From Natronococcus sp. CG52 (lineage in GTDB: Archaea; Halobacteriota; Halobacteria; Halobacteriales; Natrialbaceae), in NCBI RefSeq assembly GCF_023913515.1, contig NZ_CP099391.1, positions 682,001-746,000 on the forward strand: 64,000 nucleotides of DNA, in the 5' to 3' direction. How positions within the stretch are numbered: the first letter of the stretch is position 1; each line of letters begins with the position of its first letter. Below are positions 10,443 through 30,610 of the stretch, piece after piece. The translations under genes were made by a program, and so were the position numbers. The notes beneath the pieces are model-generated. The model ran no database searches. It saw only the letters and a list, made by a program, of their open reading frames with translations, and had not been told where the DNA came from.

Positions 10443-10530
10443 GAAGGTATCGAACCAACCGAAACGGGTTACACACCGATCGCACGACGGCTGTGCGATC
10501 GGGTGTGCACTGACTTTCAGTGGCTACGAT
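10443..10530 (-). repeat. Dispersed hairpin repeat, copy A
   Basis: Read on the minus strand, this begins CGTAGCCACTGAAAGTCAG, runs through a perfect 10-bp stem (CCGATCGCAC, 7-nt loop, GTGCGATCGG) and ends CCCGTTTCGGTTGG. It aligns without gaps to 22445-22527 and in part to 25469-25535. This copy lies just beyond the stop codon of the ATP-grasp gene (10533) and about 100 bp before the sppA start. Confidence 0.8.
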
Positions 10531-22444: not shown

Positions 22445-22527
22445 CGTAGCCGCTGAAAGTCAGCGCACACCCGATCGCACGATAGCCGTGCAATCGGCGT
22501 GTGAACCGTTTCAGTTGGTACTATACC
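22445..22527 (+). repeat. Dispersed hairpin repeat, copy B
   Basis: Starts CGTAGCCGCTGAAAGTCAG, has the stem CCGATCGCAC, 7-nt loop, GTGCAATCGG (one mismatch), and ends ACCGTTTCAGTTGGTAC. It begins 15 bp after the NUDIX stop codon and is aligned without gaps to copy A at 10443-10530 in opposite orientation. Confidence 0.8.
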
Positions 22528-28424: not shown

Positions 28425-28835
28425 GTGGAAATATCTGAAAAACTGCTGTGTTTGTTCAGTACGGAAGTCTCGGCAGAGGAGGATCGATACGTCATCGAGG
28501 TGCCACGACAGGAGGTCGAAACCGGCGACATCGACGCCGGTGACGTCTACCGCGTCGCGCTCATTTCTCGTGATGAAACAACAGAGGAGACGACATCCGC
28601 GTCGGCGAGCCAGCCACAGACCGCGCCGTCGGAGCCACAGCCGCCGGTCGACGTCGGCGAGACGCGGTACGTCGAAATCGAAGACATCGGCAAGCAGGGT
28701 GACGGCATCGCCCGCGTCGAGCGCGGCTACGTCATCATCGTTCCCGGCGCGGACGTCGGCGAACGCGTCAAGGTCGAAATCTCCGAGGTCAAGTCGAACT
28801 TCGCCGTCGGCGAGATCATCGAGGAGACGTTCTAG
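28425..28835 (+). CDS. TRAM-domain RNA-binding protein
   Basis: A 136-residue protein with a GTG start at 28425 fixed by the conserved N-terminus VEISEKLLCLFSTEVSAE. A linker of Ser/Pro/Gln follows (about 50-75). The C-terminal 60 residues are the TRAM domain: RYVEIEDIGKQGDGIARVER, then YVIIVPGADVGERV. Archaeal stand-alone TRAM proteins act as RNA chaperones in other species. It follows the radical SAM gene and precedes a row of strong hairpins. Confidence 0.9.
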   Translation: MEISEKLLCLFSTEVSAEEDRYVIEVPRQEVETGDIDAGDVYRVALISRDETTEETTSASASQPQTAPSEPQPPVDVGETRYVEIEDIGKQGDGIARVERGYVIIVPGADVGERVKVEISEVKSNFAVGEIIEETF

Positions 28836-28838
28836 AGA

Positions 28839-28907
28839 CGAACTTTTTTGCCGCGGAATTGACTGGCGTCGGAGACGCCAGCCTCAACCCCCCGGCAAAA
28901 AAGTTCG
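28839..28907 (+). terminator. Nested hairpin with 15-bp outer stem after the TRAM gene
   Basis: CGAACTTTTTTGCCG (28839-28853) and CGGCAAAAAAGTTCG (28893-28907) are perfect complements. Inside, CTGGCGTC (28863-28870) and GACGCCAG (28874-28881) form a second perfect stem with a GGA loop. The T6 in the left arm follows the stop codon by 8 bp, so it should end transcription of the TRAM gene, but the nested form is more elaborate than a terminator needs. Confidence 0.65.
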
Positions 28908-28920
28908 ATGAAAAAAGAGC

Positions 28921-28980
28921 CGAGCGCGCCCCTCGGGCGCGCTCGGGGAAACGGCGCGCGAAGCGCGCCGTATGCCGTTT
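28921..28980. repeat. Two further perfect hairpins with triloops
   Basis: CGAGCGCGCCC (28921-28931) pairs with GGGCGCGCTCG (28935-28945) around a CTC loop. ACGGCGCGC (28951-28959) pairs with GCGCGCCGT (28963-28971) around a GAA loop. In addition AAACGGC (28949-28955) can pair with GCCGTTT (28974-28980), which would exclude the second of these stems. With the nested hairpin just before, this makes three structures in 142 bp. Confidence 0.65.
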
Positions 28981-29094
28981 CATTGTGTTAGTCCACGTAC
29001 CTCTAGCTTGACAACTGATACCTACAGGTGCGCACTGAACGCTGCTGCAACTTGTCTGAGAAAGAACTTATACTCTTAATTGATTATAACTGAT

Positions 29095-29520
29095 ATGAAC
29101 CGTCGAACGGCCCTTGCGATGATTAGCACTGGGGCAATAGCGGGAGGCGCTGGTTACTTCTTTTTTGAAAGAGCTGGCCCTATTAATTTTCAACTCATGA
29201 ATTTCACTGGGAGGACACAAAATGTTGATGTTATTATCTCCGAAGACGGCGGAGAGACGGTATTGAATGAATCGTATGAAATTGATGAACGAAAGACTCG
29301 CGGAGCAACTGTAATTCGGGAAGACGAATTTACTGAAGCAGTTAATGGTGATATATTTAATACCGTTATTGAACTTTCCAGCGGTGAGTCAGAGGAGAGC
29401 GGGTTCCAGATGATGTGCAATGAGAGTGATATGACATCGGATTTGTTCGTAGCGGAGATACGGGAAAACCGTGAGAGAGACGATATATATTTTGAGTTTG
29501 ACCAATCTGTCTGTGGTTGA
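29095..29520 (+). CDS. Predicted exported or anchored protein, AT-rich gene
   Basis: A 141-residue protein. The start MNRRTALAMISTGAIAGG has twin Arg followed by a hydrophobic run and GYFFF, resembling a Tat signal or membrane anchor; there is no lipobox Cys. The rest is beta-rich and acidic with two Cys (QMMCNES and the final SVCG). I do not recognise a family. ATG 29095 follows a TATA-like ACTTATAC by about 25 bp. Codons are far richer in A/T than the neighbours, which suggests transfer from outside. Confidence 0.65.
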   Translation: MNRRTALAMISTGAIAGGAGYFFFERAGPINFQLMNFTGRTQNVDVIISEDGGETVLNESYEIDERKTRGATVIREDEFTEAVNGDIFNTVIELSSGESEESGFQMMCNESDMTSDLFVAEIRENRERDDIYFEFDQSVCG

Positions 29521-29845
29521 AGTTCACAAAACGTATTCAGAACGATTTCATGACAGCCGACAGTGAAATTGATTGTTGCTCCGTTACCTACTTCGCCTGT
29601 ACTGAACAGTGATACGTGAAGCGTGGCTGAAGCGAATCGTCTGCTTCGTAGCAACAGGAGCTTACCACGCCCTCCCCCAACCGATTCGCTCGCGCAACGT
29701 TGTCGACGCCCTCACTTACGCTCGGTCGGCCGGCAGCGCCCGCCATTGCGTACGGTAACTCCGTCTGAAGTGAGACGCCGGGTACCGGTCCAGAACGCGA
29801 CTGACAGATGCTCGCAGAAATAGAGAACCGTTTTCTCACGACCAC
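29521..29845. other. Gene-free stretch after the AT-rich gene
   Basis: About 325 bp. The first 100 bp continue the AT-rich character of the gene before it; the composition then returns to normal near 29640. Open frames on both strands lack recognisable motifs. It may be the scar of an old insertion, but I see no terminal repeats. Confidence 0.4.
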
Positions 29846-30610
29846 CTACTCCGGAATCGTCTCGCGGAACGTCTCCGGACCGTCGTGGAAACAGTCTCCG
29901 ACGACGATAGCGTCCGCACCGGCCTCGAGGATCTCGCTCGCTTTCTCGGCGCTGTTGATCCCGCCACCGTAGAACAGCGCCGTCTCCGAGAGATATTTCG
30001 AGGCCGCCTCGACGTCCGCCGGGCCGCCGTAGGTGCCCGAGTACTCGACGTAGAAGATCGGAAAGTCGTAGAACGCTTCCGTGGCGAGGGCGGCACCGGC
30101 GACCTCCTCCGGGGTGTACCTCGCGTCGACGCCCGAGACGGCGGCCGCCGTCGACTCGAGGTGCTGGACGACGTACCCCTCGCCGACCACTTTCGTCGCG
30201 AGTTCGGCCACCGCGTCGATACCCTTCGACGCGATCAGATCCCCGACGACCGGGACGCTCGAGCCGAGCAACTCGTCAGGCTTCCGGCCGACTTCGGTGA
30301 AGAGGTCGACGTGCTTGCCGACGAAGTGATCCCGGTCGCCGTTGTACACCGCGGGAATCGAGAGGTAGTCGGCGGCCTCGATGGTGTCCGTCGAGACGTG
30401 GTCCGAACTGTACGGTTCCTGGAGGACGGGGAGCCCCGGGAGCGCCCCTTTGACGCGTTCGATCGCGTCGAGGCTGTTGTCCTCGCTGACGTTATCGGAG
30501 CCGCCGACGAGCACCATGTCGGTCCCCTCGAGTATCTCGAGGTCCGACGGTAACGGCTTGGCCGGATCGACCTTCGTGACGTGGGTGATCTCCTCCCAGT
30601 CGATATCCAT
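29846..30610 (-). CDS. Geranylgeranylglyceryl phosphate synthase
   Basis: Catalyses the first ether bond of archaeal membrane lipids, joining sn-glycerol 1-phosphate to geranylgeranyl diphosphate. It has 254 residues in a TIM-barrel of the PcrB/GGGPS family. Seen are HVTKVDPAKPL, LVGGSDNVSEDN, PIFYVEYSGTYGGP and the phosphate-binding LFYGGGINSAEKA, then ADAIVVGDC. The start is ATG 30610 (MDIDWEEITHVTK). It lies 59 bp after the YkgJ-type gene on the same strand and is probably co-transcribed with it. Confidence 0.95.
   Translation of the reverse strand: MDIDWEEITHVTKVDPAKPLPSDLEILEGTDMVLVGGSDNVSEDNSLDAIERVKGALPGLPVLQEPYSSDHVSTDTIEAADYLSIPAVYNGDRDHFVGKHVDLFTEVGRKPDELLGSSVPVVGDLIASKGIDAVAELATKVVGEGYVVQHLESTAAAVSGVDARYTPEEVAGAALATEAFYDFPIFYVEYSGTYGGPADVEAASKYLSETALFYGGGINSAEKASEILEAGADAIVVGDCFHDGPETFRETIPE

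Follow-up and report, generated by a model that had tools for sequence, protein, structure and literature searches.

A candidate bidirectional transcription terminator recurs at the ends of haloarchaeal genes

The window, the whole 64,000-nucleotide stretch of Natronococcus sp. CG52 DNA analysed here, carries on its + strand a gene for a TRAM-domain protein of 136 aa (28425..28835; Pfam TRAM, E 2.9e-16) that ends with a TAG stop codon at 28833-28835. A group of hairpins (28839-28980) begins 3 nt later. An earlier note on this DNA had described three perfect hairpins, one of them nested, and every stem was found in its place on the + strand. Hairpin 1 (28839..28907), whose stems covary in other copies, consists of an outer 15-bp stem (28839-28853, CGAACTTTTTTGCCG, with 28893-28907, CGGCAAAAAAGTTCG) around an inner 8-bp stem (28863-28870, CTGGCGTC, with 28874-28881, GACGCCAG). 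The basic stem of hairpin 2 has 11 bp (28921-28931 with 28935-28945) and a CTC loop, and one more C-G pair extends it to 12 bp (28920..28946), while hairpin 3 (28951..28971) has 9 bp (28951-28959 with 28963-28971) and a GAA loop. For 28820-29000 the minimum free energy of the + strand fold was -96.5 kcal/mol, a value that 0 of 200 shuffles reached (z -8.56), and the - strand gave -100.2 kcal/mol (z -8.90). With a fold z of about -8.6, the hairpins are real and well above chance.

Runs of six T accompany the hairpins on both strands. The + strand tract (28844..28849), a putative terminator of the TRAM gene, lies 8 nt past the stop codon. On the - strand, one tract (28897..28902) is within the 3' arm of hairpin 1 and the other (28911..28916, CTTTTTTC), which comes after hairpins 3 and 2 when read along the - strand, has flanking bases identical to those of the typical + strand tract. 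The pattern CGAA[CG]TTTTT had only two matches in the whole 64-kb window, and both were the arms of hairpin 1. A conserved 16-nt core, AAAANTTCGATGAAAA (28899..28914, +), was used for pattern searches in relatives and in the class. The alternative fold put forward in the earlier note is available in principle, since AAACGGC (28949-28955, +) can pair with GCCGTTT (28974-28980), but GCCGTTT was absent 3' of the third hairpin from the relatives whose copies were read. Because the 9-bp stem would be lost and the relatives have no GCCGTTT there, this pairing is, judged from the sequences compared, the least natural fold of the window copy, to which it seems to be private. Hairpin 3 itself was retained in three TRAM orthologues (L008, L011 and L027), a conserved TATGC or TACGC stands directly 3' of it, and the slot of hairpin 2 was occupied in relatives by different GC-rich hairpins.

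The gene that follows the window copy is on the + strand, beyond an AT-rich stretch. This stretch (about 28980-29840), which separates the TRAM gene from a convergent gene, was absent at that place in several relatives and contains a small + strand ORF (29080-29520) whose N-terminus resembles a signal peptide or a lipoprotein peptide. The TRAM gene of several relatives faces a gene for a protein ending in VVGDCFHDDPETFRETIP, with the element in the short space between them, and this protein resembles the product of the window - strand ORF that ends near 29846. Elsewhere the window contains another short dispersed repeat (TAGCCRCTGAAMGTCAGYG, then CACACCCGATCGCAC), at 10508-10526 (-) and 22447-22465 (+); with up to one mismatch allowed, it occurred at 60 places in the same genome (reversed control, 0).

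A blastn search of 60 relatives recovered the whole unit (28839-28975), both as single copies after TRAM and other genes and as several near-identical copies per genome. The 16-nt core was present in 26 of the 61 genomes of the relatives' set, with 11 copies in the genome of origin and none for the reversed-pattern control. Class-wide, it occurred in 46 of 242 genomes, mainly of the same family (control, 0). A covariance model of hairpin 1 and the core matched 28 of 37 genomes, with up to 28 matches per genome and E-values that are to be taken as rough. Recurrence across haloarchaea and covariation of the stems, whose absence would have counted against the earlier note, were both observed. Plasmid records of Natrinema, Haloterrigena, Halarchaeum, Halomicrobium and others also carried the element, always outside annotated features. 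The scan of genome contigs returned true haloarchaeal matches mixed with chance or coding ones, and only matches with arms were kept. A phage or viral origin was rejected, as the pattern matches on viral contigs had no arms and resembled chance matches in AT-rich DNA, and phage records gave no match to the 69-nt consensus. No Rfam family reached its gathering score anywhere in the 64-kb window, and a literature search for the core sequence found nothing. The hairpins of the window are one copy of a recurrent, unannotated haloarchaeal element.

The consensus of the element is CGAAC-T5/6-N, a GC stem with a small internal loop and a variable inner stem, and then A5/6-CTTCG-ATGAAAAA, after which more GC-rich hairpins usually come. 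In its common state, seen in 116 of 129 distinct copies, the outer arm contains a C.C mismatch. The window copy has C.G at this site, a state common to 5 copies, so that its arm is perfect and appeared as a clean 15-bp stem. A second conserved mismatch, UC.UC on the + strand and GA.GA on the - strand, has been lost from the window copy. The - strand fold of hairpin 1 was predicted to be the more stable one in 93% of 129 copies. A kink-turn in hairpin 1 was considered and rejected; tandem G.A occurs on the - strand of many copies but the 3-nt bulge is missing. A strict detector found a perfect hairpin 3' of the core in 55 of 135 copies, compared with 3 in shuffles, and hairpins 2 and 3 are accordingly common, not universal.

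Several variants of this plan were seen. The inner part of hairpin 1 was flipped relative to the outer arms in L049, L050, L051, L063 and L003 (TTGAG...CGATG, not CATCG...CTCAA), as if inverted. Enlarged elements (L094, L168, L178, L014 and L152) had hairpins added in the loops or between A5 and CTTCGATG, giving up to five or more stems. Many of the copies that follow stop codons (L085, L128, L143, L144 and L154) carried another module 3' of the core, GCACTCCTCC...hairpin...TCGTCGGCCCGCTCGCTC, the CCTCC of which has a likeness to the 3' end of 16S rRNA.

The location of the element was compared with genes called by codon usage. Nearly half of the distinct copies (67 of 136) started 0-5 nt past the stop codon of an ORF that looked coding, most often at 3 nt (30 copies), only 4 of 136 started 6-24 nt past one, at 10-19 nt, and about half had no called stop codon within 25 nt. 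Where both neighbours were called (n=95), they were convergent in 56 cases, tandem in 39 and divergent in none, whereas the baseline intergenic spaces of 47 sequences were convergent in 37 (19%), tandem in 105 (55%) and divergent in 50 (26%). The corresponding p-values, about 2e-17 for the convergent cases and 4e-13 for the absence of divergent ones, are too small because sites in related genomes are not independent. Among the genes at whose ends copies lie are those for TRAM, transcription factor S, ribosomal protein L10e, acyl-CoA dehydrogenase and a GTPase, and the place after TRAM, transcription factor S, L10e and a 205-aa gene ending in EGMETDVEF was kept across genera.

The TRAM protein had been suggested as a possible ligand of the structure. 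Only about a dozen copies follow TRAM genes, and many TRAM orthologues have neither the element nor a T-run past the stop codon. Because most copies follow other genes, the proposal is unsupported, adjacency being all that spoke for it, and the same two observations ruled against autoregulation of TRAM.

Archaeal RNA polymerase stops at T-tracts of the kind seen here, and haloarchaeal termination is known mostly as a plain T-tract. Tracts of T4 to T6 were present in nearly all copies of the element. The commonest context of the + strand tract was C-T5-C (58 of 135 copies), and C-T4/5/6-C was dominant for the first - strand tract, the contexts of the two strands being alike. The window copy has its T6 soon after the gene, where an archaeal terminator of T4 or longer would be expected. 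In Haloferax volcanii this context was efficient, a reporter with an inserted T5C tract showing 95% termination, and many 3' ends had hairpins upstream (PMC7237163). The earlier note had objected that a terminator would need only the T6, which holds for one strand. The element has one T-run on the + strand and two on the - strand and lies mainly between convergent genes, so a two-sided terminator fits.

The element recurs with a common anatomy, sits after stop codons, was not seen in divergent contexts and shows compensatory changes in its stems, and from this we infer that the stretch is probably, though by no means surely, a copy of a haloarchaeal 3'-end element serving as a bidirectional transcription terminator between genes. 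This is more likely than a riboswitch or a TRAM ligand because the element recurs, starts mostly within 5 nt of a stop codon and never lies between diverging genes. RNA polymerase leaving the TRAM gene would meet the C-T6 tract 8 nt past the stop codon. Polymerase arriving from an opposing gene would cross hairpin 3 and hairpin 2 before it met a pair of T-tracts with CATCGAA between them (CTTTTTTCATCGAACTTTTTT). The imperfect palindrome that lies between the tracts probably makes the polymerase pause, obstructs it or serves as a protein-binding site, and the extra hairpins and mismatches may provide a pause, a protein site or a guard against read-through. Some features count against the terminator model. 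If polymerase already halts at the + strand tract, little of hairpin 1 is transcribed in that sense, and something else must account for its being conserved. CGAAC...CTTCGATG and the mismatches are conserved more strongly than a plain T-tract terminator requires, and termination alone leaves the extra hairpins unexplained. The copies far from any called stop codon and the TRAM orthologues with neither element nor T-run also speak against the model.

The way the stems evolve bears on each reading of the element. Two gap-poor alignments (98.2% and 95.4% of cells paired) contained 8 and 9 pairs that had changed on both sides, a result obtained in 0 of 500 shuffles, and no pair that had changed on one side only. 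G.T and A.C were about equally rare among 158 distinct stems (7 v 11 in the inner stem and 17 v 23 in the downstream stem), with no strand bias. An RNA folded on one strand is expected to pass through G.U steps. The compensatory changes of a structured RNA were thus present, but its excess of G.U intermediates and its one-sided steps were absent. Because these are absent and specific mismatches persist, the stem changes favour a DNA-level or two-strand role over a structured RNA made from one strand. Either both strands matter, or the arms would be matched at the DNA level by template switching. The conserved mismatches resist such levelling of the arms, which suggests that selection acts on them.

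The foremost alternative to a terminator is a small mobile repeat without host function, comparable to the SMRs, PATEs or MITEs of Haloquadratum, which would insert between genes and simply be tolerated at their ends. Near-identical copies do occur at unrelated sites of one genome (L036 and L037 of G007 are identical over 140 bp), and the Haloquadratum SMRs are about 80-110 bp long, with inverted ends and other mobile elements as targets (PMC3119063). In addition, several copies reside in a larger carrier repeat that has imperfect inverted ends, CAGTAG..ACGGTTTC (CAGTAGTTGGTAATACGGTTTC... and complement), with GTAG repeated at the insertion point. At one such site, where the GTAG flanking the insert lies at a stop codon (L150/L419, at G000:C1 near 3332461-3333000, with L420 and L421), the genome of origin is occupied by the repeat with the hairpin element, in N. 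pandeyae the inverted ends enclose other contents and G008 (L421) is empty. Mobility of the carrier repeat is well supported by this; independent movement of the hairpin element does not follow. Inverted ends, target duplication and an empty site were seen for the carrier only (L150/L419 v L421) and not for copies of the after-stop type, to which that of the window belongs, and no transposase was found. Moreover, neutral insertions would not be expected to start 0-5 nt after stop codons, to miss divergent sites altogether or to be retained at the same genes across several genera, and the mismatches persist while the stems change. A mobile repeat without function is therefore unlikely, and the best reading of the carrier appears to be that the terminator sometimes rides inside MITE-like elements.

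Less likely still is an imperfect palindrome acting purely at the DNA level, as a cruciform or protein-binding site that insulates convergent genes or handles supercoiling in the manner of bacterial REP/BIME. It would account for the symmetric pair changes described above, for the convergent locations, where positive supercoils meet, and for the kept mismatches (C.C on the + strand, G.G on the - strand, and the tandem pair). However, symmetric pairing is also expected if both strands are transcribed, the length and flanking bases of the T-tracts are conserved as a terminator would need, and no binding protein is known. Most improbable is a structured RNA, be it an sRNA, a riboswitch or an element of a 3' UTR, which TRAM might bind and the alternative pairing might switch: the very stable folds, the compensatory changes, the neighbouring gene for an RNA-binding domain and the RNA-stabilising G.G and tandem G.A of the more stable - strand fold speak for it, but there is no Rfam match in the window and no preference for G.U, the pairing needed for a riboswitch-like switch was not found in relatives, most copies are not beside TRAM, and on the + strand the element has no room for its own promoter because it begins 3 nt past the gene. 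The earlier suggestion of a structured RNA or a mobile or regulatory element is thus supported in part, by a recurrent element of regulatory type, by copies inside MITE-like repeats and by covarying stems, but a switch and TRAM as ligand found no support.

A more elaborate form of the terminator reading is offered tentatively, as a speculation more apt to fail than to hold. The copies may constitute a family of modular, sequence-specific two-way terminators in which template switching of the DNA keeps the arms matched but spares selected mismatches (C.C / G.G and UC.UC / GA.GA). Such sparing would imply that some protein recognises the hairpin, with its mismatches, on one of the strands, and mobile repeats would have taken up and spread these units. 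If the terminator reading is true, the element would be a defined and testable terminator part for GC-rich archaea that crosses genera, marks gene ends, is common to convergent genes and travels in mobile repeats. It would also provide a natural example of stems that change in pairs with no intermediates of the RNA kind, a point relevant to the use of covariation as evidence for RNA structure.

Several known systems resemble the element in part. Bacterial REP/BIME are imperfect palindromes, often past genes and in convergent regions, with symmetry at the DNA level; the comparison covers these three traits, which are alike, and T-tracts are a core feature of the haloarchaeal element. Bacterial bidirectional Rho-independent terminators use one palindrome for two convergent genes, with a GC hairpin beside T-tracts. 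The + strand T-tract of the haloarchaeal element, in contrast, precedes the hairpin instead of following it, and the archaeal polymerase depends on the tract rather than on the hairpin. The SMRs, PATEs and MITEs of Haloquadratum walsbyi (PMC3119063) are likewise short, non-coding, palindromic, multi-copy and sometimes nested in mobile elements, but, in a comparison of the families by description only, the present element differs in that its after-stop copies occupy the same genes across genera and avoid divergent regions. The intrinsic terminators of Haloferax volcanii (PMC7237163) share a T5/T6 tract directly past genes, a C beside the tract and hairpins nearby. The available part of their description mentions nothing like the present unit, which is fixed, conserved in sequence and 70-140 bp long and has tracts on the two strands, the core TTCGATGAAAA and conserved mismatches. 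The element is a recurrent and unannotated variant of the terminator or intergenic-repeat type with some unusual features.
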